64,000 nt of DNA from Micromonospora sp. C95 (GTDB taxonomy: Bacteria; Actinomycetota; Actinomycetes; Mycobacteriales; Micromonosporaceae): assembly GCF_018070465.1 (NCBI RefSeq), contig NZ_JAGPXT010000001.1, positions 62,001 to 126,000 of the forward strand, given 5' to 3'. Each line of letters opens with the position of its first letter. Positions within the stretch are counted from its first letter, which is position 1. Position numbers and translations under genes: made by a program. Below, piece after piece: positions 1,918-20,066 of the stretch. Under the pieces are notes generated by a model. That model was not told the origin of the DNA and did not search any database. It saw only the letters and a list, made by a program, of their open reading frames with translations.

Positions 1918-1920
1918 GCC

Positions 1921-4765: not shown

Positions 4766-5028
4766 CGCGCCCGCCACCCGGCGCCCGCCCATCGGCAGGT
4801 GCCAGCGTCGCCGCGACATCCGGCGGCCACACGGTGTCCGAGCCTGCCGACGCCTTCCGCCGCTCCGTCACCGCGATACAGAGCGTGACGACCGGTCCGG
4901 CGCCGCGAGAGAGACTCCGGCGGATCTGACAGTGCGGGTCGCTGAGATCCATGCCGTCGCCCGCCGTGCGCTCGGCACGTCAGCCAGGTATCAGGACACA
5001 AACCGAGCTGTCATGCCCTTGCGGGCGC

Positions 5029-5099
5029 CTTGTCAGACACCGAGGACGCTTGTCAGAGTCCGGGGTGTTCGCCAGGTCTGACAAACCCCGGTTGGTGGG
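5029..5099 (+). promoter_or_regulatory. Operator-like site B upstream of the DNA-modification operon
   Basis: Three TCTGACA cores lie here: inverted at 5029-5037 and 5049-5057, direct at 5077-5085. The right half (5052-5099) matches site A at 2631-2680 on the opposite strand, including GGTGTTCGCCA, GTCTGACAAA and CCCGGTTGGTGGG. It ends 38 nt before the ATG of the first modification gene, a position suited to a promoter/operator. Confidence 0.6.
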
Positions 5100-5137
5100 T
5101 GTCAGCGCATCACGGCGCGGCGCGGAGCCGACATCGC

Positions 5138-6082
5138 ATGAGTCGATCCACACCGCACACCCCGCAGCCCCACGGCGACCCGGCCCAGACCGGCAGCGCC
5201 GACCCGACTCTCCTGGTCGATCTGGTTGCCGGCGACCCGCCGGTGCCGATCACCGTGTGGCGCACCGCCCGCGGCGACGACCCCACCACCAGCGTTCCCG
5301 CCCGCCTGGCCTACCGACTGATATCCGCGTACAGCCGGCCCGGCGAGGCGGTCGTCGACCTCACCGACGGCCACACCCTGACCGCCGCCTGCCAGCGCGG
5401 ACAACGCCGGCACCACACAGCGTGGTTCACCGACACGGCCTCGCTGATCATCGGCCCGGCCACCCCGCGGGGCACCCAACCCGACGGCGAGACCGACACC
5501 GGCCTCGACGAGGCGACCGGGGCCGACCCGGACGGGCCGGAGCCGCCCGACCTGGCCGCCTGGTTCGGCGACGACCTCACCGACCCGACCATCCCGCCGG
5601 GTCGCCCGCCGGTCCCCGCCCCGCCCCCGAGCGCGGACGCGGACGCCAGCGTCGCCGGCGTCACCAGCCTGGTGGTCGCCTGCTGGCCCCTGGACCGCTC
5701 GGGTGACGCGGCCAACCGTGTCCGCCTGGCCTGGCTGCTCGCCGCGTGCGCGCGGCTGCTGCGCCCAGGCGGCTGCCTCGTCCTGGTGGTCGGCACCCGG
5801 GCCGGCACGCCTACCACTCCGGAGGACTTCCGACCCCTGGTCGCGGCGGCTTCCGCCGCCGGGCTCGGCTACCTGCAGCACATCGTCGCCGTCGCCGCCG
5901 AGGCCGACGGCGACCAGTTCACCTACTTCGCCAGCGACGAGGAACTGCTCGCTCTCACGGCTGGCGAGGACGGCCAGCGGTGGGCGGTCGCGCATCTGCG
6001 GGTGCACGCCGACTGTTTCGTGTTCAGCCAGACCCAGCCGCCCACGCCGCGGCGCCGACGGGGTGGTGACGCCCGTGCCTAG
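5138..6082 (+). CDS. SAM-methyltransferase-like protein, first gene of the modification operon
   Basis: The product is 314 aa from ATG 5138. The C-terminal half looks like the back end of a class I methyltransferase: a strand after a helix-rich block (RLLRPGGCLVLVVGTRAG, about residue 205) and then a region like the DNA methylase family member encoded just downstream. The usual N-terminal SAM loop is weak (PGEAVVDLTDGHTLTAACQRG, about residue 65), so it may be a degenerate or non-catalytic partner. It overlaps the next gene by 8 nt. Proteins of this kind sit beside the N4-type methylase in actinomycete conjugative elements; the exact function is unknown. Confidence 0.5.
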   Translation: MSRSTPHTPQPHGDPAQTGSADPTLLVDLVAGDPPVPITVWRTARGDDPTTSVPARLAYRLISAYSRPGEAVVDLTDGHTLTAACQRGQRRHHTAWFTDTASLIIGPATPRGTQPDGETDTGLDEATGADPDGPEPPDLAAWFGDDLTDPTIPPGRPPVPAPPPSADADASVAGVTSLVVACWPLDRSGDAANRVRLAWLLAACARLLRPGGCLVLVVGTRAGTPTTPEDFRPLVAAASAAGLGYLQHIVAVAAEADGDQFTYFASDEELLALTAGEDGQRWAVAHLRVHADCFVFSQTQPPTPRRRRGGDARA

Positions 6083-7064
6083 GCCCATCACCCCGATCGC
6101 CGCACCCGACCCGGACGACAACGACTCCACCAACCAGCCCACGATTGCCTCCGCCACGAGCGCCAGCCCCCACGGACACCGCCGGGCTGCTCCCGGCCCG
6201 CAGGGCCTGTCGGTGTGGGCGACCGCCCAGTTGACCGGGCCGGTGCAGCGCCGCGGCCGGTACGTGCCGGACTCGGTCCGGCACCCGGCGCGGATGCTGC
6301 CGGCGATCGCCGCGCACGCCATCGACTCCTACACCTCACCCGGCGACCTCGTGCTCGACCCGATGTGCGGCATCGGCACCACCCTGGTCGAGGCCGCGCA
6401 TCTCGGCCGGGACGCCATCGGCGTCGAGTACGAGAGCACGTGGAGCGACATCGCCGACGCCAACATCGCCCACGCCCATACCCAGGGCGCCACCGGGCGG
6501 GCGTCGGTGGTGCGTGGCGACGCCACCCGCATCACCAGCCTGTTGCCGGCCGCGCTGGCCGGACGGGTGTCCCTGGTGGTGACCTCACCGCCGTACGGGC
6601 CGACCGTGCACGGACTGGTCCGCCCGCAAGCCGGCGCCGGGGTGCACAAGTCCGACAACACCTACAACGACGGCACCGACAAGGGCAACCTCGCCTACCG
6701 CGACCTGCCCGGCCTCGCCGAGGGATTCGCCGAGATCCTCGCCGGCTGCGCCACCCTGCTCACCCCCGGCGGGATCGTCGTAGTCACCGCCCGGCCCTGG
6801 CGCAAACGCGGCGAACTGGTCGACCTGCCGTCCGCGGTCATCGGCGCCGGGACCGCCGCCGGCCTCGTCCCGATCGAGCGGTGCGTGGCGCTGCTCGCCG
6901 CCGTCCGCGGCGGACGGCTGATCGCCCGGCCGAGCTTCTTCCAACTCTCCGCCGTACGCAAGGCGAGGGCCGCCGGGGTGCCGATGCACCTGATCGCCCA
7001 CGAAGACGTCATCGTCCTGGCCAAGCCGCTCCCCCAGCCCCCGGGGGAGGGTGAGGCCCGATGA
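6075..7064 (+). CDS. DNA (cytosine-N4/adenine-N6) methyltransferase
   Basis: The product is 329 aa from GTG 6075, inside the last codons of the previous gene. Motif I (DPMCGIGTTLVEAA, about residue 95) binds SAM, and the catalytic motif IV is TSPPYG (about residue 171). The order I before IV and the SPPY tetrad are typical of the N4/N6 amino-methyltransferases of the DNA methylase N-4/N-6 family. The region after SPPYG (residues about 175-200) probably contacts the target. No restriction partner is visible, so it may be a self-protecting methylase that lets the mobile element evade host restriction. GTG codons at 6063 and 6066 are alternative starts. Confidence 0.85.
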   Translation: MPRPITPIAAPDPDDNDSTNQPTIASATSASPHGHRRAAPGPQGLSVWATAQLTGPVQRRGRYVPDSVRHPARMLPAIAAHAIDSYTSPGDLVLDPMCGIGTTLVEAAHLGRDAIGVEYESTWSDIADANIAHAHTQGATGRASVVRGDATRITSLLPAALAGRVSLVVTSPPYGPTVHGLVRPQAGAGVHKSDNTYNDGTDKGNLAYRDLPGLAEGFAEILAGCATLLTPGGIVVVTARPWRKRGELVDLPSAVIGAGTAAGLVPIERCVALLAAVRGGRLIARPSFFQLSAVRKARAAGVPMHLIAHEDVIVLAKPLPQPPGEGEAR

Positions 7065-7933
7065 CCGCACCGACGACTCGACTGCTGTCTCTCGGCGCCG
7101 GGGTGCAGAGCTCGACGCTTCTGCTGTTGGCAGCCCAGGGCGACATTACTGGGTTCGACGCGGCGATCTTCGCCGACACCTCGTGGGAGCCGGCCGCCGT
7201 CTACCGGCATCTGGACCGGCTGACGGAGATCGCCGACCAGGTCGGCATCGAGATCGTGCGCGTCCGTACCGGTGACATCCGGGCTGACGCTCTCGACCCG
7301 ACGCACCGCTTCGCCAGCATGCCCCTGTACACGCTCGGACCGAACGGCGAGCGTGGCATGGCCCGGCGACAGTGCACCGGCGAATACAAGATCAAACCCA
7401 TCAAGGTCGAGGTTCGGCGACGGCTCGGCTACCCACACCCGGCCCGGGTACCGGCCGGCGTACGGGCGGACATCGCGATCGGGATCAGCCTGGACGAGAT
7501 CGGCCGGGCCCGCGATGCCGATGTCGGCTACATGCGCAACGTCTTCCCTTTGCTCGATCTCGGTTGGCGACGCGAGGACTGCCTGCGTTACCTCCACCAG
7601 CAGGGTCTCGGGGACACCCCGCGCTCGTCGTGTGTGGGGTGCCCGTTCCACGACGACGGTTTCTGGCTCGCGCTTCGCGAGAACAGTCCGACCGAGTGGG
7701 CGGACGCCGTCGCGTTCGACCATGCGATCCGTAACGGCTCCGCGCGGGCCAACGCGGCCGGGCATCCGCTGCGCGGGCAGTTCTTCCTGCACCGGCAGCG
7801 GGTGCCTCTCGACGAGGTGGTGCTGCGCCCACGCACGCAGGCGGCGGACACGCCGGGGTGCGGGCCGTGGACGTGCCCGCACGACGTCCCGAACTCGGCT
7901 CCGGCCGACGCGGGACAGCGGGAGGTGGCGTGA
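7061..7933 (+). CDS. PP-loop ATPase, phosphoadenosine phosphosulfate reductase-like
   Basis: The product is 290 aa, coupled to the preceding methylase by ATGA. The N-terminal LSLGAGVQSSTLLLLAAQG matches the PP-loop (SGGxxS) in the variant form GAGVQSS. Four cysteines in the second half (RQCTGEYKIKP, SSCVGCPFHDDGFW) resemble the metal/cysteine sites of PAPS-reductase-like enzymes. Such proteins are common in phages and conjugative elements without a sulfate pathway. Some relatives act in DNA or tRNA sulfur chemistry, but no dnd partners are visible here. Its place between methylases suggests a nucleic-acid modification role, which I infer only from context. Confidence 0.75.
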   Translation: MTAPTTRLLSLGAGVQSSTLLLLAAQGDITGFDAAIFADTSWEPAAVYRHLDRLTEIADQVGIEIVRVRTGDIRADALDPTHRFASMPLYTLGPNGERGMARRQCTGEYKIKPIKVEVRRRLGYPHPARVPAGVRADIAIGISLDEIGRARDADVGYMRNVFPLLDLGWRREDCLRYLHQQGLGDTPRSSCVGCPFHDDGFWLALRENSPTEWADAVAFDHAIRNGSARANAAGHPLRGQFFLHRQRVPLDEVVLRPRTQAADTPGCGPWTCPHDVPNSAPADAGQREVA

Positions 7934-8475
7934 GCGGTGCGCATACCAACGGACCGCGGATCGGATCGGTCTGTTCGGGTTACGGAGGCCTCGACCTGGC
8001 CGTCGAACTGGTGCTCGGCGGCCGTCTCGCCTGGTACGCCGAGACCGACCGGCACGCCGTCACCGTATTGCGCCACCACTGGCCCGACGTCGCGAACCTC
8101 GGTGACATCCGCACCGTCGACTGGGCCAGAGTCGCACCGGTCGACATCGTCACCGCCGGATTCCCCTGTCAGGACATCAGCAACGCCGGCAAGAGGGCCG
8201 GCATCACCGGGGAGCACTCCAGCGTCTGGACACACGTCGCCGCAGCCGTTCGCGTTCTTCGACCGCGCCTGCTGTTCGTGGAGAACGTCGCCGCACTCCT
8301 GCGGCGCGGCTTCGACGTCGTCCACCGTGACCTGGCCGAGATCGGGTACGACACGAGCTGGCTATGCCTACGCGCATCCGACATCGGCGCCGCCCACCGA
8401 CGCGACCGGCTGTTCCTGCTGGCAACCCCCACCGAACGAGGGGATGCGGACGTTGCCGACTCCCTGCGCCCGTGA
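7930..8475 (+). CDS. C5-cytosine DNA methyltransferase, N-terminal (catalytic) half
   Basis: The product is 181 aa from GTG 7930, which overlaps the PP-loop gene's stop (GTGA) and has GGGAGGTG just upstream. It contains the catalytic part of a Dcm-type enzyme. Motif I is SVCSGYGGLDLAVE (about residue 15); motif IV is GFPCQDISNAGKRAG with the nucleophilic Cys (about residue 80); motif VI is LLFVENVAAL; motif VIII ends in HRRDRLFLLA. It stops soon after motif VIII. The target-recognition region and motifs IX-X are absent here but continue in the +1 frame (next entry). Either it is the alpha subunit of a split enzyme, as in M.AquI, or one extra base in CCCCC (8426-8430) or GGGG (8440-8443) has broken a single gene. 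Confidence 0.8.
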   Translation: MSGAHTNGPRIGSVCSGYGGLDLAVELVLGGRLAWYAETDRHAVTVLRHHWPDVANLGDIRTVDWARVAPVDIVTAGFPCQDISNAGKRAGITGEHSSVWTHVAAAVRVLRPRLLFVENVAALLRRGFDVVHRDLAEIGYDTSWLCLRASDIGAAHRRDRLFLLATPTERGDADVADSLRP

Positions 8476-9421
8476 CGGCAAAGGCCCCGGCCACCAGCAC
8501 GGCTTACCCGACGTCATCGAACCGGGCGGCACCCGCCACCACCTGCTCCCCACACCCACCGCACAGCCCTACGGGTCGAACCGGTCCCCGTCGGCGGGCG
8601 CGGCACGCCGGCCGAGCCTGGCCGGCGTCGCCGGGCAACTCCTGCCCACCCCGACCGCCGCAGGCGGCACCGGCTACATGAGCGGCACCCACCGCGACAC
8701 CTGGAGACCAACCCTCGAATCAGCGGTCCACGGCTACCGGCCCCACCACGGCGGGAAACCCCCGAAACCCCAGGCCCCACCGCCGTCGGCGGCGGCCAGC
8801 GGTCACTCGGCTGCGGGCGTGCCCGGCCCCCTGCTACCGACCCCGCGCGCCAGCGACACCGGCACCGCGGGGCGGCGGGCCGGCGCCGGGTTCCGCCCGC
8901 CACTGTCGCAGGTGCTGCTACCCACCCCGAAAGCCACCGACGGCACGAAAGGCTGCCCAGGACAACGCGGCTCACACGGGGACCTGACCCTGCCATCGGC
9001 GGCGGTGCGGGTACCCGGGCGTACCCTGCCGACCCCACGCGCGTCCGACGCGCGTGGTCCCGGACGGCACGGCGACGGTGGCGCCGACCTGCGCACCACC
9101 GTCGCCGACCTCACCGGCGGCCTGGGGCGCCTCGATGAGCGGCGGTGGGGCGTCTACGCCGCCGCCGTCGCCCGCTGGGAACTGCTCATCGGCCGGCCCG
9201 CACCGACGCCCACACAGGTCGGCACGCACGGCAAGCCGGTCCTCGCGCCACCGTTCGTCGAGTGGCTCATGGGTCTGAACGCCGGTCACGTCACCGACCC
9301 CACGCTCGGGTTACCGCGCACCGCCGCGTTACGGGTGCTCGGCAACGGCGTCCTCCCACAACAAGCCGCGACCGCGCTGCGGCTGCTGCTGTGCCCGAAC
9401 CGATGGCAGGTGCCCGCATGA
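8444..9421 (+). CDS. C5-cytosine DNA methyltransferase, C-terminal half with LPTP repeats
   Basis: The product is 325 aa from ATG 8444, which overlaps the previous frame by 32 nt and follows GAGGGG. It supplies what the first half lacks. Residues 3-229 contain six units each opening with (L/T)LPTP followed by xAxD and a Gly-rich tail; residues about 255-320 hold the conserved Dcm end (PPFVEWLMGLNAGHV, then ALRVLGNGVLPQQAATALRL, motif X). The repeated part occupies the place of the target-recognition domain. The start at ATG is natural if the enzyme is two-subunit; otherwise this is the rest of a frameshifted gene. The 3' end overlaps the next methylase by ATGA. Confidence 0.7.
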   Translation: MRTLPTPCARDGKGPGHQHGLPDVIEPGGTRHHLLPTPTAQPYGSNRSPSAGAARRPSLAGVAGQLLPTPTAAGGTGYMSGTHRDTWRPTLESAVHGYRPHHGGKPPKPQAPPPSAAASGHSAAGVPGPLLPTPRASDTGTAGRRAGAGFRPPLSQVLLPTPKATDGTKGCPGQRGSHGDLTLPSAAVRVPGRTLPTPRASDARGPGRHGDGGADLRTTVADLTGGLGRLDERRWGVYAAAVARWELLIGRPAPTPTQVGTHGKPVLAPPFVEWLMGLNAGHVTDPTLGLPRTAALRVLGNGVLPQQAATALRLLLCPNRWQVPA

Positions 9422-10458
9422 GCGACACGATGCCCGCCGGCCGACTGTCCGGCTACGAGTACCACCGGTCCGGTCCCGTCACCCTGTATCTCGGCGACGC
9501 CGCCCGGGTGATGTCAGCAATGCCGGACTCCAGCGTCGACTGCATCGTCACCAGCCCACCGTTCTGGGGTCTGCGCGACTACGGCACCGGCGCCTGGGCT
9601 GGCGGTGATCCCGCCTGTCCGCACCGGACCGGGCGCGTTCGCCGCGTCAACGGCAGCACCTGCCCCGCCTGCCGGGCCCGATGGATCGACCCGCAGTACG
9701 GGCTGGAAGCGACCCTGGACGACTACCTCGACCACCTCGTCGCGGTCTTCGACCAGGCCAGACGGATCCTCACACCAGCGGGCACCTGCTGGGTGAACCT
9801 CGGCGACTGCTACAGCAGCGCCTCCGGTGGGGCGCCGATGGCCGGCCGCCCACAGCCGGGAGGGCTCCGACCACCACGCCCGCGGGCGCAAGACGCCCTC
9901 CCAGCGAAGAACCTCGTCGGGGTGCCCTGGCGGGTCGCGTTCACCCCGCAGTCACGCCAATGGTGGCTACGCAACGCGATCATCTGGTCCAAGACCAACC
10001 CGATGCCAGAGTCCGTGCGCGACCGCCTATCCACCACCTACGAACTGCTGTTTCTCCTCACCAAATCCCACTCCTACTACTTCAACCTGGACCCGATCCG
10101 GGTACCACTGGCTCGGCCGGAAGCCGCCGACGGCACCCGCGTCTTCGGCGGCGCGCGTAAAGGCCACAGCGGCGGAGTCGACGCCACCGCCCGTCGCCGG
10201 GGCAACACCACCTACGGCGCCGGCAAGTACCGCGCCGGCGACGTCGGCGTCGAGCCACGGGCCGGGCGAGGCAACCTCGTCCCGCTCGGTCACGCCCACA
10301 CCGCGACCCACCCGAGCGGGCGCAATCCCGGAGACGTGTGGCGGATCGCGACACGCCCCTACCGCGGGTCACACGTAGCGCCGTTTCCCGTCGACCTGCC
10401 GCTACGGGCCATCGCGGCCGGCTGCCCGCGACAGGGACTGGTCCTGGATCCGTTCTCC
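9418..10458 (+). pseudogene. Site-specific amino-methyltransferase, N-terminal part, interrupted by insertion
   Basis: 347 codons from ATG 9418 encode a DNA methylase of the N4/N6 family: VTSPPFWGLRDYG (about residues 43-56) is motif IV, and a zinc-like pair (DPACPHRT and STCPACRARW) follows. The sequence runs normally to RQGLVLDPFS, the start of the SAM-binding DPFSGAGTTG motif, and then changes to unrelated sequence. The missing GAGTTGVAALQLG... resumes in the same frame at 17200. So the open frame past 10458 (to 10554) is not native, and the enzyme lacks most of its SAM site as it stands. Motif IV precedes motif I, the opposite order to the operon's first methylase. Confidence 0.85.
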
Positions 10459-10461
10459 AAA

Positions 10462-10475
10462 ACGCACACATTCCA
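10462..10475 (+). repeat. Left terminal inverted repeat of the insertion
   Basis: The sequence ACGCACACATTCCA lies 3 nt inside the junction with the methylase gene. Its inverted partner at 17177-17190 differs at one base. Confidence 0.75.
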
Positions 10476-10556
10476 CCCAAGGTGTGCGAGTTGCTGCCTT
10501 CCGTCCACAGGTGGTGCAGCCTTCTGCTCCACGTACGGCGATTTCCACATCTGAAA

Positions 10557-10990
10557 GTGTTGTGGGATCAGGATTTGGTGTCGGCGTTGCTCGACCGGGA
10601 TCGCCTTCGCATCCGGGCGGTAGGGCTGGAGTTGGCCCGCTCCGCGGCGCTGCTGTTCGGTTACGGCGACGAGCGAGGACTGGGACCACGCCCGCGTCAC
10701 GGATTCGAGTACGGCTACCGCGACATCGACTCGTTGCTGGAGCCGATGCGGCTGATGCCGTCCACCGCCTGTGGTGGGAGCGCGTCAGCAACGACCTGTG
10801 GCCGCTGCCGCTGCACTACGACAACGCCGACACGTCTTGCATCGCTCGTTCGCGTCGGCATCGGCGTTGTTGGCCTGGTTGCCTGTAGAGCGCGATGCGG
10901 TCACCGCGGGCCAAGACCGAGCCACCGGGCGCGGCCTGCGCGGCCTCACGCCCGACGTGTCGGACCCGTGGAGAGGGGCAGGCGGGATGT
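10557..10990 (+). pseudogene. Decayed gene fragment in the left arm of the insertion
   Basis: Three plus-strand frames in succession give protein-like sequence: first VLWDQDLVSALLDRDRLRIR and onward to about 10750, then AVHRLWWERVSNDLWPLPLH in a second frame, then RSFASASALLAWLPVERDAV in a third. Nothing in one frame is long enough to be a gene, so this looks like one small gene hit by at least two frameshifts. I do not recognise the family. The following 500 nt (to 11517) contain no gene I can support. Confidence 0.4.
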
Positions 10991-11517
10991 CGCCATGCTA
11001 AGGCCGCACATGCCGCCACGGCGTGTGTCGTGCGGTACCGGTGCCCCGTGAAATCGGACAGCCCGACTGCCGACGTGCAGTCCGTGGCAGCGGCGAGCGC
11101 CGCGACGATGCCACGGCCAGCGCCGGGAGGAGCGCGTCGCCCGCCCCGCTGGCATCGACCACGAACCACTGGGGCCGGACTCTTCGCTACTGCAGTACCC
11201 GGCATCGTGCGGCCTCGCCGCACGACCAGGTGCGAGGACTGAGGCGACGCAGCCGCCGCGGCATCACCAGCGGCTTTACTCGATCGAGGTGGAGAAAGGC
11301 GGCAGCTCCAGCCTGGTTCATCAGGAAGGCGCCGAACTCCCAGCCACCGGTCGACGTCAGGATGCGGCAGGAGATTGCCGATCGAAACCTCGGAGCGCCG
11401 ACGTCGGCAACCGGCGCTGCCCCTGCTGGCCGCCCAGGCAGGCGCTATCGGGTGATTCGTTCGTTGCTGGGTGTGACGTTGTGGCTGGTGCCGGACATAA
11501 ACACGGTAGGAGGTGCC

Positions 11518-12066
11518 ATGGACGTCGCGGAGAAGCAGTTCACCGAGCTGTACGAGCGTCATTACGGGGACGTGTGGCGGTACGTCGCTCGGCGGGTCGG
11601 CGGGTCGGACGTCGGTGATGTTGTTGCCGAGGTCTTCCTCGTCGCGTGGCGACGTCTGCGTGACGTTCCGGCAGGGTCGGCGTTGCCGTGGCTGTACGGG
11701 GTGGCTCGTCTGGTGCTGTCGAACGAGGCCAGGGGCCAGCGGCGGTGGCAGGAACTGGCGCTGAGGGTCGCGGCGGAGCCGGGCCGGTCGGTGAGTGTGG
11801 ATCATGCGGACGAGGTGGTCAGCCAGCGTGACGTCGCGGTGGCGTTCGGCCGGCTGTCCGCCGCGGATCAAGAGATCTTGCGGCTGGTGGCTTGGGAACG
11901 GCTGAGTGTCGCTGAGGCTGCGGTCGCTCTCGGCCAGTCCCGAGCGACGTGTGCGATGCGGCTGATGCGGGCTCGCCGCCGGCTTCGAATGCAACTGGAC
12001 GTGGTGGGTGACGGGGTGCAGCGGGCAACGCGGGCGACGCCGTCGATGTCGAATTGGGGTACATGA
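11518..12066 (+). CDS. ECF RNA polymerase sigma factor
   Basis: The product is 182 aa from ATG 11518 with TAGGAGGTG just upstream. Region 2 (FTELYERHYGDVWRYVARRV and EVFLVAWRRLRDVP) and region 4 (LSAADQEILRLVAWERLSVAEAA, then ATCAMRLMRARRRLR) are clear. The ECF size, with no region 3, and the DVxxxVFLVAWR motif fit the SigE-like actinomycete ECF group. It is followed 1 nt later by a membrane-anchored CU044_5270 protein, the usual partner. That partner may act as a co-regulator or anti-sigma-like protein, which is not proven. It is cargo of the insertion. Confidence 0.9.
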   Translation: MDVAEKQFTELYERHYGDVWRYVARRVGGSDVGDVVAEVFLVAWRRLRDVPAGSALPWLYGVARLVLSNEARGQRRWQELALRVAAEPGRSVSVDHADEVVSQRDVAVAFGRLSAADQEILRLVAWERLSVAEAAVALGQSRATCAMRLMRARRRLRMQLDVVGDGVQRATRATPSMSNWGT

Positions 12067-12067
12067 G

Positions 12068-13105
12068 ATGAAGGCCGTCAATGAGGTGCGCCAGCTGCTG
12101 GGCGGACTGGATCCAGCACGACACGTCCGTCCAGCCGACGAGAACAGCCGCGTGCGGGATCTGGGCCGCATCCTTGCCTCTGATCGCGCTGTGGGCAGCG
12201 TCAGGCTAGGGCATCCGCGGCGCCGTTTCGTGTTGGCGGCGGCCGGCGCGGTGGTCCTGGCGGTGGCGGCTGGCGGGGTGGCGCTGGAGACGTTCCGGCA
12301 GCCGCAGCCAGCGTTCGCGGCTACGCCGGCGATCCTGAACTACGGGCCGCCCGTGAGCGAGGAGCCGGCCAGCGCCCGGTTGCGACGCCTGGCCGCGCTG
12401 GCGGCGGCACAGCCGGCAGCCCAGCAGCCGGCGGGGACGGTGGAGTACCTGGAGTCGACGAACTGGTTCCTGAACTCGTCGATCTCCGGCGGCCGGACGA
12501 CGTCTGCTGTGGTGCCGCAGCAGTGGCGGTCCTGGCGAACCGATGACGACGCCGGGCGGATGGTCAAGAAGGAACTGCCGCCGACGTTCCGGACTGACGC
12601 CGACCGGCGGGAGTGGCAGCGGGGAGGTGGCCGTATCGACTCCTCAGAGGAGGTGCGCGACTTCACCACCGGTGGCTTCTACAGCCGCTTCCAGGGTTCG
12701 GTACCGACGGACGCCGGGGTACTGCGGCAGTGGCTGACGGCGGGTGCCTCGGCGCACGAAGCGCCGGTGCAGTATCTGGAGGACGTCGCCGAGCTCGCCG
12801 GTGTGCGGTTGCTGAACCCGGCGCAGCGCGCTGCGGTACTCCGGCTGCTCGCTGACCTTCCGGGCGTCACGGTGAGCGGGAGCGTCACGGACCGGGCTGG
12901 GCGTCCCGGGGAGGCGTTCTCGATCGTGTCAGACGCTCACGGCCTGCCTGCCCAGTACACCGTGATCGTCGATTCCGGCACCGGCGCGCTGCTGGGGTAT
13001 GAGGAGATGTTGACCACGACGGCGGGAAAGCTGAACGTGACCATACCTGCGGTAATCAGTTACCGGTCCTACCTGGTCGCCGAGTACGCCGCAATGCCGC
13101 GTTGA
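12068..13105 (+). CDS. CU044_5270 family membrane-anchored protein
   Basis: The product is 345 aa. A cytoplasmic N-terminus of about 55 residues precedes one membrane segment (RRRFVLAAAGAVVLAVAAGG). The rest is extracytoplasmic and ends in the family's conserved part, where YRG/SG-type strands (LADLPGVTVSGSVTDRAGRP) and a final ALLGYEEM stretch are recognisable. The gene begins 1 nt after the sigma factor stop, the standard pairing for this family in actinomycetes. Function is unknown; by analogy with sigma/anti-sigma pairs it may sense something outside the membrane. A second family member, a lipoprotein, is encoded at 22932-23837. Confidence 0.85.
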   Translation: MKAVNEVRQLLGGLDPARHVRPADENSRVRDLGRILASDRAVGSVRLGHPRRRFVLAAAGAVVLAVAAGGVALETFRQPQPAFAATPAILNYGPPVSEEPASARLRRLAALAAAQPAAQQPAGTVEYLESTNWFLNSSISGGRTTSAVVPQQWRSWRTDDDAGRMVKKELPPTFRTDADRREWQRGGGRIDSSEEVRDFTTGGFYSRFQGSVPTDAGVLRQWLTAGASAHEAPVQYLEDVAELAGVRLLNPAQRAAVLRLLADLPGVTVSGSVTDRAGRPGEAFSIVSDAHGLPAQYTVIVDSGTGALLGYEEMLTTTAGKLNVTIPAVISYRSYLVAEYAAMPR

Positions 13106-13112
13106 CAGCGTT

Positions 13113-13145
13113 CGGGTGGGTGGCGCCGAAGACGCCACCCACCCG
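13113..13145. terminator. Strong bidirectional hairpin terminator
   Basis: A perfect 13-bp stem, CGGGTGGGTGGCG against CGCCACCCACCCG, encloses a 7-nt loop (CCGAAGA). It lies between the ends of two converging genes, so it can terminate both. There is no T-run, as is common in high-GC actinomycetes. Confidence 0.75.
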
Positions 13146-13177
13146 AGGGTCGAGGCGGTGCCGCTCAGGTCAGCACG

Positions 13178-13753
13178 TCAGCCGTGGATGTGCTCGGCCC
13201 TGTCGTTGTAGCTGCCGAGGTTCGCCGACGCGGTGCAGGCACCCATATTGCGGTTGTCGCCCGCCCCGTCGCCAAGGGTGCCGTTGTCGCTGCCCGAGCA
13301 CCCGGTCCAACTGCCGCCCTGGTTGTTGGTCCACGAGGAGGTCTGGTCCTTGAAGCCCCACTCGTCCAGGTCGTGCCAGTACTCGTCGTTGAACTGGAGC
13401 TTGCGACCCTGGAAGCTCGCATGCTCCCAGATGCAGATCCAGCTGTTGTCGCAACCATTCCACGCGAAGGTGCCGATGGGACCGGCGGACCGTGTCGTGC
13501 CGGTCGAGCTGATGCGAGGGGCCAAGTCGGCGGTTGCCTGCTCGTTCGTGGCGTAGCAGCGCACCTCGCTGCGGGACAGGACGGCGCAGACCTGGGCACC
13601 TTGCCAGCTCTTGGACAGGTCGATGGTGCGCCCCTGGAACGAGGCGAGCGACGGGTCACGCAGCGACGGGCTGGCGCTCGCCGGGTTCGCCAATGCGGTC
13701 ACGACGAGAATGGCGACCGCTGTGCTGGCGAGTAGTCTGGTTCGTGTCCTCAT
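13178..13753 (-). CDS. Secreted peptidase inhibitor family I36 protein
   Basis: The product is 191 aa from ATG 13751-13753, with GAGGAG 6 nt upstream. The N-terminus is a clear signal peptide (RTRLLASTAVAILVVTALAN, cleavage near ASAS). The mature part contains the crystallin-like I36 features: WNGCDNSWICIWEHASFQGR with Cys pairs, then a WGFKDQTSSWTNNQGGSW stretch. I36 proteins include the SMPI metalloprotease inhibitor of Streptomyces. It probably acts outside the cell. It is cargo of the insertion and unrelated to transposition. Confidence 0.8.
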   Translation of the reverse strand: MRTRTRLLASTAVAILVVTALANPASASPSLRDPSLASFQGRTIDLSKSWQGAQVCAVLSRSEVRCYATNEQATADLAPRISSTGTTRSAGPIGTFAWNGCDNSWICIWEHASFQGRKLQFNDEYWHDLDEWGFKDQTSSWTNNQGGSWTGCSGSDNGTLGDGAGDNRNMGACTASANLGSYNDRAEHIHG

Positions 13754-13820
13754 GGATTCTCCTCTGGATAGGAATGAGGGCGATTGCGGCCGGGGTGTTG
13801 GCGCACCCGGGCTGCGAACT

Positions 13821-13860
13821 GTCCGTCTCTCCGACGGCTCGTTCCGTCGGAGAGACGGAC
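13821..13860. terminator. Perfect 17-bp palindromic hairpin
   Basis: GTCCGTCTCTCCGACGG pairs fully with CCGTCGGAGAGACGGAC around a 6-nt loop. It lies 360 nt past the end of the minus-strand recombinase operon and about 70 nt before the I36 gene start, so it may end recombinase transcription. It could instead be a protein-binding site. The rest of 13754-14219 contains no gene I can support. Confidence 0.55.
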
Positions 13861-14219
13861 AACCTGCCGCCGAAGCTAGACCGTGGCGGTGTTTGGCGCG
13901 ACCCCGTAGGGCGGGTAGGCGAGGTTTGCTCCGAAGGTCGCAACTTGCGCTTTTGCGTGTTCGGATCATCACAGTAAGGTGATGGCGATTCGTGTCGGGC
14001 GCTACGGTCGCCATCAACTGAGCGCTCCCGGTTTCCGTTGCTGGCAGCGCGCAGATGCGATTAGCGACGGTGCGAACCTCGGGCTTCGTGATCGCCGTCC
14101 GTTCAGTGCCGGGTCACGATGTCGCTGCGGGGCCCTGTGGCGTTCTCCTGCCGTCTTTTGCGTGCGCGTGCCAGGCGGGCTATCGCGGTGGGCTGCAGAT
14201 CGTCGTGTCAAAGCACGCT

Positions 14220-15641
14220 TTACTGGGCTCGGCGGTCCGACGGATGCTGTCGTTCTTGGTCGAGATCGTGCGGCCGTGTCTGATCGCCGGCTTCTGGAAA
14301 GGCGAGTTCGGCACGATGGACGTTGCCGATCGTGTAGTGCAGGGCTGCCTTTCTGGTGATTCCGATGGCTGCGGCCAGCATGCGCGGGTCGGCGCGCTGG
14401 GCGAGATCGGACAGCCTGGTCTGACGCAGGACCTGAGGCGTGAGGGAGACCGTCGTCAGGATCCGCACGGGAAAGCCGATGGAGCAGGGCTTGTTGTGCT
14501 GCCGGCTCTGGTGTGTCACGAGCAGAAACCGGTTGTCGGGCGCTGTGGTCGAGCGCTGCTGCAGGCAGGAGCGGATCGCGTCGATGGTCAGCGGGTCGAG
14601 CGGCACCGGATGGCGGCGATTGCGCAGTCGAACAGTTGCCTGGTCGAGGTCGATGTCGTCGAGGGTGAGCATGCGAAGGTCGCTGTTGGTGGCCGCGTGG
14701 AGCAGGCACAACAGGCCGACCACGCGTTCGCGTGGGTCGGTGTCCTCTCGCCGCCACCGGTTTAGTAGTTGCCGCTGGCGGGCAGGTTCGATCAGCAAAC
14801 CGGCGTACCCCTTGCGCTGGCTGCGGCGCAGGTCGGCGGCCGGGTTGATCAGAGTGATCTTCCGACGTCGGGCGAAGGCGAAGAAGGCGCGCAGCGCCGG
14901 AATGCGCTGGGCGGCGTTGGCGGTGAGGAACCCCTCCAGATCCTCGGCGGTCACGGCAGCCCAGTCGTCGATGACCCGGGCATCGAGGTAATCGGCGAGC
15001 TGGAGCAGGACGTTGATGCGGTGGGCGATCGTGGTGTCGCTGAGGCTGGCCCCGCCGTAGAGCCGGGCGCGGCGCTGTTGAACGACCAGGTAGTCGACGA
15101 ACTGCCGGCCGGCGGGTCTGAGTCTGGGCGGCAAGCGGTCAAGCCGCCCTTGTCTCCATGACTGCACTTCGGTGTCGGTGCTGTCGGCGCGTACGCGGTG
15201 GCGGGTGAAAAAGTCACCGAGCATCGCGGCGGTGCGTCGGCTTCCGGGCTCGACACGCAAGGTCGTGATCAGGTCGTCTGGGCGGCAGATGCCGGTAAGG
15301 ATCAGTCGTTCGATGAGCAACAGGTGCCTGATCACCGTTTTGGCGTGCGCCATTGCCACCCATTCCGTCGCGGCGGTGAAGAACCACGTCGGCAGCTGTC
15401 CGTTGCGGACCGACACGCGGTTGCCCAGCCATCCCCACAGCCGCTGCGGTTCGTGATCGTGGCAATCGGTGCACAGCCGCAGCCTTCCCGGGACGGTGCG
15501 AGTCTCGACGCCGCAACGCGAACAGGTGATGGTGACGTCGGCCGCGTCGTAGCATCTGCGGCACCGTTGCACGGCGAAGATGCCGGCCGCGCTGCAGCCG
15601 CTGCACACACCCTCACGCCGGACGTCGCTGGGTCTGGTCAT
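14220..15641 (-). CDS. Zinc-finger tyrosine recombinase-like protein, active site altered
   Basis: The product is 473 aa. The N-terminus has four CxxC-type pairs (VCSGCSAAG, QRCRRCYD, ITCSRCGVE, RLCTDCHDH), probably zinc fingers. The C-terminal half has the integrase fold: LLHAATNSDLRMLTLDDIDL at the box I position, TPQVLRQTRLSD at the HxxRH position and ALHYTIGNV for the tyrosine. The box I Arg is displaced or missing, and the two His of HxxRH are Gln, so only the second Arg and the Tyr look intact. It follows the XRE gene by 2 nt. It is the last gene of a three-gene operon and may serve as structural partner of the complete recombinase. Confidence 0.75.
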   Translation of the reverse strand: MTRPSDVRREGVCSGCSAAGIFAVQRCRRCYDAADVTITCSRCGVETRTVPGRLRLCTDCHDHEPQRLWGWLGNRVSVRNGQLPTWFFTAATEWVAMAHAKTVIRHLLLIERLILTGICRPDDLITTLRVEPGSRRTAAMLGDFFTRHRVRADSTDTEVQSWRQGRLDRLPPRLRPAGRQFVDYLVVQQRRARLYGGASLSDTTIAHRINVLLQLADYLDARVIDDWAAVTAEDLEGFLTANAAQRIPALRAFFAFARRRKITLINPAADLRRSQRKGYAGLLIEPARQRQLLNRWRREDTDPRERVVGLLCLLHAATNSDLRMLTLDDIDLDQATVRLRNRRHPVPLDPLTIDAIRSCLQQRSTTAPDNRFLLVTHQSRQHNKPCSIGFPVRILTTVSLTPQVLRQTRLSDLAQRADPRMLAAAIGITRKAALHYTIGNVHRAELAFPEAGDQTRPHDLDQERQHPSDRRAQ

Positions 15642-15643
15642 GG

Positions 15644-15967
15644 TCAGAACGGCGGCGGGGTTCGGCCGGCCGGGTTGACCTGCTCACCGACTGCTCGGGC
15701 GACCGGCTGCGTCTGCGCCGACATAACCGGTTGGGTCGCGGGCGTGGTGTCGATCTCGATGAGATCGTTCGGCGTGCATTGCAGCGCGGTGCACAGGGCG
15801 GCGAGAGTCTCCAGCTTCACCTGGTTGGGCTGTTTGGTCATCAACGCGGAGATCGACGCAGAAGACAATTCGTGGCCGGCCCTGTCGATCAGCAGCCGGC
15901 GTAGCTGGGCTCCTGTCCACACCTCTCGCTGGGCGGCTGCCATACGCAGTCTCCACCGAATTCGCAT
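15644..15967 (-). CDS. XRE-family helix-turn-helix protein of the transposition trio
   Basis: The product is 107 aa from ATG 15965-15967, with AAGGAG 7 nt upstream. Residues about 18-75 form a Cro/CI HTH (GAQLRRLLIDRAGHELSSAS, then LETLAALCTALQCTPNDLIE). The tail is Pro/Thr-rich. It sits between the two recombinases with gaps of 4 and 2 nt. TnpC of Tn554 is an accessory DNA-binding protein in a comparable position; this one is a different fold by sequence. It could set recombination direction or repress the operon. Confidence 0.85.
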   Translation of the reverse strand: MRIRWRLRMAAAQREVWTGAQLRRLLIDRAGHELSSASISALMTKQPNQVKLETLAALCTALQCTPNDLIEIDTTPATQPVMSAQTQPVARAVGEQVNPAGRTPPPF

Positions 15968-15971
15968 GGCA

Positions 15972-17060
15972 CTACTCCTTGCTCGTGCCGAGATCGCCGG
16001 TCAAGTCGTTCAACGCGGCGCCGACCGCGCTGCGGTAGGCGTCCTCGATGAACGTCGAGGACGGCGTCACGTAACCCATCGTCGTTCCGACATGCCAATG
16101 ACCGAGCATCTGCTGGATGGCCACCAGGTCGACGCCACGCTCGTAGTTGCGGGTGGCGCAGGCATGGCGGAGTGCGTGCGGGCTGAACCCCACCTCGTGT
16201 TCGCGTCCTTCCACCTTCAGCAGGTACTTCAACCGATTGCGAACGGTTCCGCTGCTGAGCAGGCCGCCACCTTCGTCGCAGAACAGCATCGGCTCGTTCC
16301 TGCGGAAGCGGGGCCGCACATCGGACAAGTACCAGCGCAGGATCAGATGCAGGTCGTCGAGCATCGGCACCCAGCGCGGGCGTGGCCCCGATCCCTTGGC
16401 TGCCTTACCGAACCGCACGTGCAGCTTCCCGAAGGGGCCGCGGTCGAAGTGCACGTCGCGGATCTCGAGTTTGGTGGCCTCGGACGCCCGCAGACCGGCG
16501 TGGTACAAGGTCCGGTATAGCGCATAGTCCCGCGCCCACGGCGCCCACTTGCGGACCACGCCCATCTGCGTACGGATGAACGCGAAGAAGTCGTCCATAC
16601 GCTCGGGCGTCGGCGGCACGATCTCGGTCGCGTCGTCCACATGCCGGCCGGCGTGGAACTCGTCGATCGGATCCTGCAGCCGCACCCCGAACCGTTGCTC
16701 GATCTCAGCAGCATGCCGGGCCAGCAGGTAGCGGAAGAACTGTCGAAACGTTCCAACATAGTCACGACGTGTCACCGCCCCGGTGCCCCGGGCGACCAAC
16801 GCCTCCACCACCCGATCCACGTCGGCAGGGGTCAACTCCCACGCCGGCCGACCCGCCAATCCCAGAAACCGGTCCAGAGCGGCATTGTCCTTCTCGATCG
16901 TGAGCGCGCTGAAGTTGCGCGCCACCATGCTGGACACCCAGCCACCGACACACCGTGCCTGAAACGCCAACGGCTCCTCGGTCTCGCAAGCCGTCACCGC
17001 GACCGCCGCAGTTCCCTGGACCAGTCGCAGTCCCGGACGTCCGTTCATCACCGCGTGCAT
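15972..17060 (-). CDS. Tyrosine recombinase, catalytically complete
   Basis: The product is 362 aa from ATG 17058-17060, chosen because AAAGGGGTG lies about 9 nt upstream; the open frame runs on to 17159. The core-binding domain is residues about 40-140. The catalytic domain has box I Arg (YRTLYHAGLRASEAT, about residue 190), the HxxRH motif (SPHALRHACATRN, about 296), GHWHVG and the nucleophilic Tyr in TTMGYV (about 330). This is the only member of the trio with the full active site, so it probably does the strand exchange. It is the first gene of the operon, next to the right inverted repeat. Confidence 0.85.
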   Translation of the reverse strand: MHAVMNGRPGLRLVQGTAAVAVTACETEEPLAFQARCVGGWVSSMVARNFSALTIEKDNAALDRFLGLAGRPAWELTPADVDRVVEALVARGTGAVTRRDYVGTFRQFFRYLLARHAAEIEQRFGVRLQDPIDEFHAGRHVDDATEIVPPTPERMDDFFAFIRTQMGVVRKWAPWARDYALYRTLYHAGLRASEATKLEIRDVHFDRGPFGKLHVRFGKAAKGSGPRPRWVPMLDDLHLILRWYLSDVRPRFRRNEPMLFCDEGGGLLSSGTVRNRLKYLLKVEGREHEVGFSPHALRHACATRNYERGVDLVAIQQMLGHWHVGTTMGYVTPSSTFIEDAYRSAVGAALNDLTGDLGTSKE

Positions 17061-17176
17061 CCCTTCGACACCCCTTTGAACTTCCAGGTGCCGCCTAAAG
17101 ATGCGGGCCAGAACCGAAAGAGTCGCGGAACCAAGGTCTCGCGCATTCCTGCAGGCCAAATGGCGTCAGGGCTGTC

Positions 17177-17190
17177 TGGAACGTGTGCGT
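17177..17190 (-). repeat. Right terminal inverted repeat of the insertion
   Basis: On the minus strand this reads ACGCACACGTTCCA, 13 of 14 identical to the left repeat. Nine bases (ACCACGGGT) separate it from the resumed methylase sequence at 17200. Confidence 0.75.
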
Positions 17191-17199
17191 ACCACGGGT

Positions 17200-17340
17200 G
17201 GCGCCGGCACCACCGGGGTCGCCGCGCTCCAGCTCGGCCGCCGCTACGTCGGTGTCGACATCAACGCCTCGTTCCACGACCAGGCGCTGAAACGGCTCCA
17301 TCCGCACCTGCCCGACTCGTCGAGCGAGGAGAGCGGATGA
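17200..17340 (+). pseudogene. C-terminal part of the interrupted amino-methyltransferase
   Basis: 47 codons including the stop encode GAGTTGVAALQLGRRYVGVD and a final helix ending LPDSSSEESG. These residues complete the DPFSGAGTTG motif that stops at 10458. Joining 10458 to 17200 keeps the frame and gives a 393-aa enzyme of normal length. The stop overlaps the ATG of the XF1762 gene (ATGA), the same coupling used by every upstream gene, which confirms this is the original operon. No start codon belongs to this fragment itself. Confidence 0.85.
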
Positions 17341-17789
17341 GCCTACGGACCGTGCCCGTCACCTTCGCCCAAGCGTGCGCGTTCGTGCACGACTGGCACC
17401 GGCACCACCGACCGCCGCGCGGACACAAATTCAGCATCGGAGCCGCCAACGAGGACGGCGTCCTGGTCGGCGTCGCCGTCGTCGGGCGTCCGGTCGCCCG
17501 GATGCTCGACGACGGCCTGACCTTGGAGGTGACCAGGGTCGCCACCGACGGCAGCCGCAACGCGAACTCGCTGCTGTACGCGGCGGCGTGGCGGGCCGCA
17601 CGAGCACTCGGCTACCGACGCCTGCTCACCTACACCCAGCAGGGCGAGTCCGGAGCCAGCCTGCGGGCGGCCGGATGGCGCATCGTCGCCACCCGCCCGC
17701 CAGCACCAGGCTGGTCCCGACCGAGCCGGCCTCGTACCGATCACGGCACAGGGCACATCGGCCGCCAGCGGTGGCACGCCCCAAGCTAA
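17337..17789 (+). CDS. XF1762 family protein
   Basis: The product is 150 aa. It matches the XF1762 family by the series FVHDWHRHHRPPRGHKFSIG, VGVAVVGRPVARMLDDG, LEVTRVATDGSRNANSLLYA and GYRRLLTYT. The fold resembles a GNAT acyltransferase, but the family's reaction is unknown. Such genes travel with DNA methylases in phages and conjugative elements. It was originally the gene after the second amino-methyltransferase, whose stop overlaps this ATG, and now heads what remains of the operon. Confidence 0.8.
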   Translation: MSLRTVPVTFAQACAFVHDWHRHHRPPRGHKFSIGAANEDGVLVGVAVVGRPVARMLDDGLTLEVTRVATDGSRNANSLLYAAAWRAARALGYRRLLTYTQQGESGASLRAAGWRIVATRPPAPGWSRPSRPRTDHGTGHIGRQRWHAPS

Positions 17790-17880
17790 GCCGTTCCCCA
17801 ACATCCCCGATGACCATTTCCGGCCGGGAGCGGCGGCGCAATCCGCCGCCCCGGCACCCGCTCGTGCAAAGGAGAAGCCT

Positions 17881-17908
17881 GTCCGGCATCCATAACCACA
17901 GGCCGGAC
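17881..17908 (+). terminator. Hairpin after the modification operon
   Basis: GTCCGGC and GCCGGAC pair around 14 nt, about 90 nt after the XF1762 stop. No T-run follows. The remaining noncoding sequence 17790-18028 shows nothing else. Confidence 0.4.
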
Positions 17909-18028
17909 ACCCTGCTCTCCGTTGCAGGCCGGCGCCTCGGTGCGTGTGGTGGCTGACAGGAGTAAGGGCTCGCAGAGCCATCGCAGCATTTTGTTGCGCC
18001 GCCTCTGAGGGCCACGCCATTCGGCGAT

Positions 18029-19482
18029 CTAGTACGGCAGCCGCCGTTCGGGATCATGGCTGAAGTTCGAGGTTGAGGCGGCGTGTGTAGTGGGATCGTC
18101 GGGCTCGGGCTTGATGCCGGCGCCGCCACTGTGACCAGCGCAAACGGTGGGCGAGGTTGCTGATCGGGCGGATGATGCTGGCGTTGATCAGACGGCGGAC
18201 TTCGTTGACCGTCAGCTTGATCAGTCCGGTGTCGGCAGGGTCGTGGCGGGCCGCGTCGGCTGCGCAGATCGCCAGGACGGCGAGGGCGGCTAACGCGAGG
18301 GTGGTGAACCGGTGCCAGGAGTCCCAGCGGCGGACCTGGTGCTGGTCCAGGCCGACCTGGCCTTTGGCGGCTTGAAAGCTCTCTTCGACGGTCCAGCGGA
18401 TCCCGGCGACGCGGACGAGTTGGGCGAGGGTGGCCGGCTTCGGAGTCCAGCAGCGGTAGAAGGCCAGCTCGCCGGTGGTGGTGTTGCGGCGGATCAGGAG
18501 GCTGTGCCGGCCTGCGTCGTCGGGGTCGGCGTCGGTGCACACGTCGTCGAGCCAGGCCCAGTCGTAGTAGCGGGGGCCCTTGGATCCGGAGCCGGCGCTG
18601 CGGCGCTGCCACGCCGTCTTGGGCAGGTTGACGGCGATGCGGTCGGCGCGGACTCTGGTCCTGCCGCCGTCGAGGGGCACCAGGTGACTGCGCGACACGG
18701 CCAGGACGTAGCCCAGCTGGTGGTGGCGCAGGTGGGCGCGGAACGCGGCGCTGTTGCCGTATGCCTCGTCCGCGGCGACCCACCCCGCGGGCACGCCGGC
18801 GTCGAGGGCGGCGGTGATCATGTCGGCGGCCAGCTCCGAACGGGTGGCGAATCCGACCTCGTCGGGCACGCCGGCGGCCTGGCACCGCGTACGGTCGTCG
18901 GTCCATGACGCCGGCAGATACACCCGTCGGTCGATCAGGGTATGCCCGTCGGAGCCGGCGTAGCCCAGGAACACCCCCACCTGGCTGTTCTCGATCCGCC
19001 CCGCCGTGCCGGTGTACTGGCGCTGCACCCCGACCGAATGCACGCCCTTCTTCAGGTCACCGGTCTCGTCCACGACCAGGACCGCATCCGGGCCACCGAA
19101 CCGGCCGACGATCAGCTGCCGCAGGTCATCACGCACGGCATCGGCGTCCCACACTGCCCGGTACAGCAGCCGCTGCATCCCGTCGGGCCGGGCGTGTCCG
19201 GCCTGCTCGGCCAACTGCCAGCACGTCTTGACCTCAAGCTCAGTCAGCAGCCCCGTCACGAACGCCGCCGCGCACCGACGCGGCTCCACCCGCCCGAACC
19301 GCCCCGCGAAACACCCGAGCACCCCGGCCATGACCCGCTCCCACAAAGCAGGGTCTACGCTGTCGCCTGCGGCCACCGCCAGATCTGATGTTGTGTCCAC
19401 AACGCACAGACGATCACGCGGTGGCCGCCTCGCGTCCACCCCACCTCACCAGCAACATCTCAAACGGCGGCTGCCGTACTAG
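18029..19482 (-). mobile_element. IS701-family insertion sequence
   Basis: Perfect 20-bp inverted repeats CTAGTACGGCAGCCGCCGTT bound one transposase gene (18029-18048 and 19463-19482). IS701 elements duplicate a 4-bp YTAR target, so the outer CTAG at each end may be the target duplication; the element proper would then be 18033-19478. The copy looks complete and lies in noncoding DNA between the XF1762 gene and the excisionase gene, so it disrupts no visible gene. Confidence 0.9.
18054..19439 (-). CDS. IS701 family transposase
   Basis: The product is 461 aa, starting at GTG 19437-19439. IS701 features are clear: DAVLVVDETGDLKKGVHSVG contains the first catalytic Asp and the DExxDxKKG signature, VGVFLGYAGSDGHTLIDRRVY follows, then ADEAYGNS, and GIRWTVEESFQAAKGQVGLD carries the final Glu of the DDE site. 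The length is normal and I see no frameshift, so it is probably active. The stop lies 21 nt inside the inner edge of the left-hand inverted repeat. Confidence 0.93.
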   Translation of the reverse strand: MDARRPPRDRLCVVDTTSDLAVAAGDSVDPALWERVMAGVLGCFAGRFGRVEPRRCAAAFVTGLLTELEVKTCWQLAEQAGHARPDGMQRLLYRAVWDADAVRDDLRQLIVGRFGGPDAVLVVDETGDLKKGVHSVGVQRQYTGTAGRIENSQVGVFLGYAGSDGHTLIDRRVYLPASWTDDRTRCQAAGVPDEVGFATRSELAADMITAALDAGVPAGWVAADEAYGNSAAFRAHLRHHQLGYVLAVSRSHLVPLDGGRTRVRADRIAVNLPKTAWQRRSAGSGSKGPRYYDWAWLDDVCTDADPDDAGRHSLLIRRNTTTGELAFYRCWTPKPATLAQLVRVAGIRWTVEESFQAAKGQVGLDQHQVRRWDSWHRFTTLALAALAVLAICAADAARHDPADTGLIKLTVNEVRRLINASIIRPISNLAHRLRWSQWRRRHQARARRSHYTRRLNLELQP

Positions 19483-19703
19483 CCGGCGGGGCGCGCGAAC
19501 AACCTCGCCTCGTCACCACTACCTCGGCCCCACCAGAACGGGACAGCCATCACCTCCGACGTCGACTCACACCGTGCCGGTACGCGATCGCGCCAATGGA
19601 CGCCAGCACAGCCCGCTACCGATGACACGACGCCTGTGAACCGAGCAGCAGTTCGTCTCAGTTGCTCAACGCCCCTCTACAACCCATGTCAGGAGTAATC
19701 ACC

Positions 19704-20066
19704 GTGACCAGCCACAACAGCGACCCTCGCAGGGCTTTCCCTACGACCGGCAGCGGTAGGCAGGTGTGGACCGAGGAACGAATCCGTGCTCTCGGCGCGA
19801 TCACCGACCTACCCACCGCCGGCCGCATCTTCGGCCTCGGCCGGGCCCTGTCCTACGAACTCGCCCGCACCGGCGACTTCCCCGTTGCCGTCATCCGCGC
19901 CGGCACCCGATACAAGGTGCCCGTGGCCGGCATCCTCACCGCCCTCGGCCTACAGCCGTCCCTGGGCGACTTGACGCCGGGCGGCATGCCAAGCGTCGAT
20001 CACCAGCGGGAAATCAGCAGCATCGACCCGCCGCACAGCGGCGGCGACGGAAAGGCCGAACCGTGA
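19704..20066 (+). CDS. Excisionase-like helix-turn-helix protein
   Basis: The product is 120 aa from GTG 19704, with AGGAG 9 nt upstream; an in-frame ATG at 19686 is the alternative. Residues about 20-80 look like a winged helix of the excisionase/MerR-like type (TAGRIFGLGRALSYELARTG, then VIRAGTRYKVPVAGILTALG). It overlaps the integrase start by 4 nt, so the two are made together. It probably sets the direction of recombination of the large element. Confidence 0.8.
   Translation: MTSHNSDPRRAFPTTGSGRQVWTEERIRALGAITDLPTAGRIFGLGRALSYELARTGDFPVAVIRAGTRYKVPVAGILTALGLQPSLGDLTPGGMPSVDHQREISSIDPPHSGGDGKAEP

Follow-up and report, generated by a model that had tools for sequence, protein, structure and literature searches.

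How a DNA methyltransferase gene of Micromonospora sp. C95 came to lie in two pieces, and what the DNA between them is, are the questions raised by a stretch of 64,000 nucleotides (nt) of contig NZ_JAGPXT010000001.1 (positions 62,001 to 126,000), here called the window, whose own numbering is used throughout. The split is real and exact, and the inserted DNA belongs, as a divergent member, to a transposon family that is widespread. It is very probably a site-specific transposon whose family, found in actinobacteria, has the core tnpA-HTH-tnpB (HTH, helix-turn-helix) with a degenerate second recombinase, inserts without duplicating its target, keeps a 6-nt tag of its own and would move through a circle with fixed strand polarity. 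The way in which this family joins DNA appears to be unusual.

The interrupted methyltransferase gene

The gene encodes an N6/N4 DNA methyltransferase on the + strand and is cut after codon 347, between the residues DPFS and GAGTTG, by an element of 6,741 bp (10459-17199) whose limits were set from adjacent bases in an uninterrupted relative and from comparison of its ends with 58 other copies, and which lacks a target duplication. The 5′ part (9418-10458, codons 1-347) matched positions 1-190 of the 221 of the Pfam N6_N4_Mtase profile (3.4e-30), and the 3′ part (17200-17340, 46 codons and the stop) matched positions 191-220 (1.9e-6), the profile breaking at 190/191. Direct reading placed the ATG at 9418, the TCC codon for the serine of DPFS at 10456-10458, the GGC codon for the first glycine of GAGTTG at 17200-17202 and the stop at 17338-17340. 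Joined, the two pieces encode 393 amino acids (aa) without an internal stop, and the joined translation contains the N6_N4_Mtase domain together with the SPPF and DPFxGxGTT motifs of such enzymes. An earlier sequence-only reading had described a methyltransferase cut in frame at its S-adenosylmethionine motif, and the coordinates, the length of the joined product and the split of the Pfam match all agreed with it.

The uninterrupted gene was found in relatives. A same-genus genome (L010) matched the joined gene with 90.4% identity over all 1,182 nt. When a longer stretch of the same contig (L045) was compared, window positions 5065-10458 mapped to 961-6300 (82.7% identity) and 17200-17900 to 6301-7019 (89.0%). 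Since the flanks map to the adjacent bases 6300 and 6301, they meet exactly, as expected from the earlier proposal that the halves join without a base lost or gained. Matches to the methyltransferase at E <= 1e-40 occurred in 32 of 354 host-family genomes, the host included. Among 29 fetched loci other than the host's own, nucleotide alignment spanned the insertion point in 24, and a further three (L036-L038) were continuous over it by protein alignment; in the remaining two (L021 and L034), the alignments stopped short of this point.

It was also proposed that a 6.7-kb mobile element had entered the gene recently. The element is indeed there, and both halves of the gene are still open and in frame; recency is plausible, given a ratio of nonsynonymous to synonymous substitution (dN/dS) of 0.24 for the joined gene against L010 (0.21 for the left piece and 0.50 for the short right piece). 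The frame of the 5′ piece enters the element and reaches a stop at 10552-10554, adding 31 foreign residues after DPFS, and the 3′ piece has no start of its own. The enzyme is probably inactive, because GAGTTG and everything after it are cut off, and the host has thereby probably lost, in one step, a DNA modification enzyme.

The inserted element and its family

The earlier reading left the element unnamed, and its identity came from the follow-up analysis. From the right end, its genes run in the order tnpA, HTH, tnpB and an I36-type inhibitor, with a sigma factor of the extracytoplasmic function (ECF) type and a CU044_5270 family gene on the opposite strand. The tnpA-like tyrosine recombinase (15972-17060, − strand, 362 aa, with a start picked by eye in a frame open to 17159) was recognised by Pfam Phage_integrase (2.2e-22) and by alignment with relatives. 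It is followed on the same strand by a Cro/C1-type HTH protein (15644-15967; Pfam HTH_26, 1.7e-10) and by a tnpB-like second tyrosine recombinase of 473 aa with a Cys-rich N-terminus (14220-15641), whose match to Phage_integrase (1.6e-4, 21.9 bits) falls below the cut-off of 27.1. In this second recombinase, Arg406 and Tyr436 were invariant across seven aligned members, and the usual box-II His was not seen in these seven.

A pattern scan of an 84,980-species genome collection gave 93 relatives, from which 80 loci were kept; together with six plasmid loci and the window, 87 copies were examined, and both ends with sufficient flank could be mapped in 59. These 59 are not independent, some being the same or near-identical, and 57 distinct site strings occurred among the 58 besides the window. 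The order recombinase, HTH, recombinase was found in all six plasmid relatives opened, an HTH regulator being annotated in each, and their aligned tnpA products were 57-60% identical to that of the window. The same order makes up a three-gene core in L046, and the other measured copies were about 3.0-4.2 kb long. The host assembly holds a single tnpA copy of this kind, its remaining tnpA relatives being 28-35% identical, and only two of the 354 host-family genomes, the host's own included, had such a relative at E <= 1e-60, which was too few for mapping ends. A scan of viral_contigs yielded one distant relative (37%) that was not used. In a tree of 79 tnpA proteins, the window grouped with L046 as its sister (support 100/98), its own branch being long (0.52), next to a clade of L110 and L111 (97/79, below the tree's own mark). 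No description of the family was found in the open-licence literature, where some searches were broad or aimed elsewhere and most subscription journals lay outside the scope.

The element ends were not evident among the repeats listed by a general repeat search of the window, and were revealed by comparison of relatives. The inverted repeats at the ends of family members are imperfect and about 16 nt long; the ends typically read (6 nt)GGCTGGCACATGTTCG on the tnpA side and GAACATGTGCGCTTT on the tnpB side, the corresponding sequences in the window being ACCCGT-GGTACGCACACGTTCC and GAATGTGTGCGTTTT. The tnpB-side terminal repeat (10459-10474, − strand; AAAACGCACACATTCC when read on +) lies directly against the target and has three mismatches to the family form. 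At the tnpA side, the terminal repeat (17178-17193, read on − as GGTACGCACACGTTCC) is followed outwards by six further nucleotides, the tag ACCCGT (17194-17199, also read on −), which was recognised by comparison of copies. The window thereby shows the arms of GCACAYGTTC type and the six extra nucleotides at the tnpA end that were used to recognise members, its tnpA end lying within two mismatches of an 11-nt consensus and its tnpB end differing at three of 15 positions. The tags of L110 and L111 are ACCCGA and ACCTGT.

The two ends also differ in their capacity to fold. In the window, CGCACAC (10463-10469) and GTGTGCG (10482-10488), separated by 12 nt, form a hairpin at 10463-10488. When a hairpin was defined as an inner inverted copy of the terminal arm with at least 7 of 10 positions matching within 36 nt, it was present at the tnpB end of all 59 copies and at the tnpA end of seven, the rate in control stretches 100-300 nt away being 0.115. 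The window hairpin matches at 8 of the 10 positions. This one-ended hairpin is a further mark of the tnpA-HTH-tnpB family, and its restriction to one end suggests what could set polarity.

The behaviour of the tag was followed in 32 pairs of copies at least 90% identical in nucleotides over about 1.4 kb from the tnpA start. In 28 of these pairs, the six target bases beside the tnpB end differed, and the tag at the tnpA end was nevertheless identical in 27 and one base apart in the other. In none of the 28 did the tag equal the partner's target hexamer, nor did any tag among the 59 copies match any target hexamer on either strand. The pairs share members and do not represent 28 independent events, three of them lying within one genome each (L064/L066, L077/L083 and L082/L097). 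Because it is inherited across differing targets, the tag is element-borne in this family. A coupling of donor bases of the Tn916 type was considered as well, and was rejected since tags are inherited.

Insertion sites, proposed mechanism and alternatives

Targets were assigned by iterated tblastn seeded with five reference genes, which were checked by Pfam, the PLD match lying below its cut-off. Among the 59 automatic calls, 50 were istB of IS21, four IS256/Mutator transposases, two PLD-like genes and one the methyltransferase of the window; two were left unclassified (L008 and L056), with an IstB motif seen by eye in L008 and none in L056. The commonest target was a conserved codon stretch of istB. 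An uninterrupted copy of the target spanning the junction was available for 41 of the 59 copies (in Pseudonocardia dioxanivorans, L077 and L076 were identical over 300 nt), and because these copies span the junctions, target bases are neither duplicated nor lost at the 41 sites, small gaps in distant comparisons aside. Given its preference for insertion sequence genes, the family can be regarded as a parasite of transposons. The target does not define membership, however, since six of the 59 calls were IS256 or PLD-like, one was the window and two were unclassified. Near-identical Rhodococcus copies lie in istB (L097) and in a PLD-like gene (L082 and L100), which offers a handle on how site-specific recombinases change targets.

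The window departs from the usual target in that its element lies in the S-adenosylmethionine-motif codons of a methyltransferase gene. Its sister L046 sits in istB, and L110 and L111, which are not among the 59, since no tnpB end was detected in them by the first pattern, lie in helicase-type genes (L111 as judged by eye from its flanks); from these placements, the window lineage looks to have changed its target, away from a habit of istB. The codons CCGTTC, for the residues PF, are common to the IstB site of L046 (HWPFE^) and to the methyltransferase (DPFS^) in the same codon phase, and L068 has GGAGAACGG in common with the window on the tnpB side. The window site fits the family target matrix only partly. 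At position -4, the window has C where 98% of the 58 other sites have A; for this reason the PF codons, as an account of the new target, are suggestive only.

The simplest reading of the tag data would be a fixed strand polarity in excision and insertion alike. In such a process, the two recombinases would join the ends into a circle whose junction reads arm, 6-nt tag, arm, and this circle would then enter a target by an exchange of one strand polarity. In this way, the tag at the tnpA side would remain that of the element, and the six bases at the tnpB side would remain those of the target. In the attC sites of integrons, a folded single strand sets polarity, and a folded single strand of the tnpB-end hairpin could do so here. 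It is quite possible, if short of probable, that the family represents a distinct class of tyrosine-recombinase transposons preying mainly on mobile genes, with insertion into codons of conserved protein motifs (mostly in IstB, and also in IS256, PLD-like, helicase-type and methyltransferase genes), a private tag kept from move to move, a polarity fixed by the hairpin and a single-stranded exchange that does not depend on homology of the tag to the target. The family would provide a natural test of how tyrosine recombinases pick the strand and the bases at which they cross over.

Several points weigh against this account. Movement was not observed, the circle and the strand polarity being deduced from comparisons, and the loss of enzyme activity is likewise deduced. 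The copy in the window has diverged (its TnpA is at best 67-68% identical to others, and its TnpB 30-41% to six aligned members), detection of its tnpB end required the most permissive setting, three mismatches, and the inheritance of tags is a family-level result, the window element being a single copy in its host. No mapped end or too little flank was available in 28 of the 87 copies, and the target classes rest on iterated seeding, which may drift. Moreover, the target matrix failed to single out the methyltransferase site, whose rank in the gene was 57 of 2,298 with the full matrix and varied over five sub-windows from a best of 15 of 2,336 to a worst of 350 of 2,350.

The cargo of the element lies between tnpB and the tnpB-side end and comprises the ECF-type sigma factor (11518-12066, + strand, start picked by eye; Pfam Sigma70_r2 and Sigma70_r4_2, scanned from codon 2), the CU044_5270 family protein (12068-13105, + strand; NCBIfam NF038083, 1.4e-41) and the peptidase inhibitor I36-type protein (13178-13753, − strand; Pfam Inhibitor_I36, 1.9e-7). 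This segment (10727-13996) is shared with other genomes of the same genus: 10727-13321 was 95.8% identical to G236 and 11436-13996 was 89.9% identical to G276, where the stretch is chromosomal since it lies on a 7.0-Mb contig, and none of the four fetched genomes spans the whole segment. The CU044_5270 protein was matched in 57 of the 354 family genomes, its own included, at E <= 1e-20. From these alignments, it seems that about 3.3 kb of DNA of the genus was acquired by the element and now lies between tnpB and the element's end. About 490 bp bordering the cargo (10459-10726 and 13997-14219) had no match in the four genome stretches compared.

Such matches, together with the length of the other copies, would also fit two nested or adjacent insertions, a core of about 3.4 kb and an independent element carrying the sigma factor and the other cargo. 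This is unlikely: the cargo sits between tnpB and the tnpB-side end typical of the family, and neither a second transposase among the cargo genes scanned nor bounding repeats among those listed (20 of 42 direct and 25 of 44 inverted families) were seen, no dedicated search having been made.

An element strictly of the strand-biased circularizing kind or of the Tn554 type, moving the donor's six bases to the other end of the new copy at each jump, would account for the general layout and is nonetheless improbable, given that tags are inherited rather than replaced at differing targets and that the core of L046 has three genes instead of the four of strand-biased circularizing elements.

The exact in-frame junction, with frames open on both sides, could also be expected of an on/off switch, a regulated insertion whose excision restores the methyltransferase. 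A switching function is not needed to explain it, because insertion was exact at all 41 checkable family sites, also in transposase genes, and this explanation is highly improbable. The host assembly, which shows only the majority state, contains a single tnpA copy of this kind and no empty-site 32-mer; the phase-variable gene envisaged by the sequence-only reading is unsupported, nothing pointing to phase variation. An artefact fusing unrelated contigs within the methyltransferase, conceivable in a draft of 68 contigs, deserves next to no credence, as family-type sequences stand at both ends and both gene halves keep their L045 neighbours.

Host neighbourhood and comparison with known mobile elements

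Directly downstream of the split gene, and overlapping it by the ATGA at 17337-17340 that had been predicted for this operon, lies a gene for an XF1762 family protein (17337-17789, + strand; NCBIfam NF045478, 2.8e-62). This Mom-like protein just reaches the cut-off of Pfam Mom, a family of phage Mu-type DNA modification (2.5e-6; 27.7 against 27.1 bits), and, as read by eye, L045 has the methyltransferase and XF1762 genes in the same order. Because of the Mom match, it is plausible that the two genes form a DNA-modification operon, which may make a modified base.

Other features were noted around the operon. Upstream, a protein encoded at 7061-7933 has a PADLOC match to SspD (9.5e-10). Downstream, 17901-19640 is mostly unmatched in L045, where only 18025-18155 matches, at the end of that contig, and a frame of 461 aa (18054-19439) looks transposase-like by eye. 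Frames judged by eye to be excisionase-like and integrase-like occupy 19641-21538, of which 19641-20898 is common to L045; they suggest that the methyltransferase operon is itself carried as cargo by an integrative element of actinomycetes.

Among known mobile elements, RIT elements, according to passages of PMC10214605, resemble the present family in having clustered tyrosine recombinases between terminal repeats, and differ from it in having three recombinases and repeats of 34 bp. GInts, as presented in parts of PMC5385486, have a recombinase operon at one end followed by cargo and a proposed 6-nt staggered exchange, as here; unlike the tnpA-HTH-tnpB core, they require ginABCD, with three integrase-type genes.

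Tn554, cited in sections of PMC10214605 as lacking target duplication and having a 6-bp footprint, shares with the window element one ordinary and one further tyrosine recombinase and the lack of target duplication. As regards the TnpA, TnpB and TnpC of the Tn554 family, domain searches showed two recombinases and an HTH_26 protein in the window. In actinobacterial Tn554-related pairs, passages of PMC3414803 give partners that are long (611-828 aa) and often accompanied by TnpC, whereas the second recombinase of the present family has 334-547 aa (annotated or read in seven members) and an HTH gene lies between the two. Near two family copies, separate large tyrosine recombinases were seen (L040:2255-4186 and L044:706-3393) that may be Tn554-like; the one in L040, of 643 aa, adjoins a DUF6262 gene as a separate unit.

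There is also a likeness to the strand-biased circularizing elements (SEs). Judging from the portions of PMC10214605 that describe them, SEs share with the tnpA-HTH-tnpB family a pair of tyrosine recombinases, inverted repeats that are imperfect, an offset of 6 nt at one end and a restriction to few targets. Their core comprises four genes, intA-tfp-intB-srap, the helpers included, against recombinase-HTH-recombinase in the present family, with three genes in L046 and the same plus cargo in the window, a comparison made by gene count and domains and not by a search with SE proteins. The hairpin conserved at one end was established within the tnpA-HTH-tnpB family. The same portions report that, in SEs, the six bases beside one donor end enter the circle and come to lie at the opposite end of the new copy, and that Tn554-related elements behave similarly. 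The hexamer is thus replaced at each move in SEs and inherited in the tnpA-HTH-tnpB family, as judged by the family-level test. An inherited 6-nt tag is the opposite of the replacement reported for SE and Tn554 elements and, by comparison of copies, sets the family apart from both as they have been reported.

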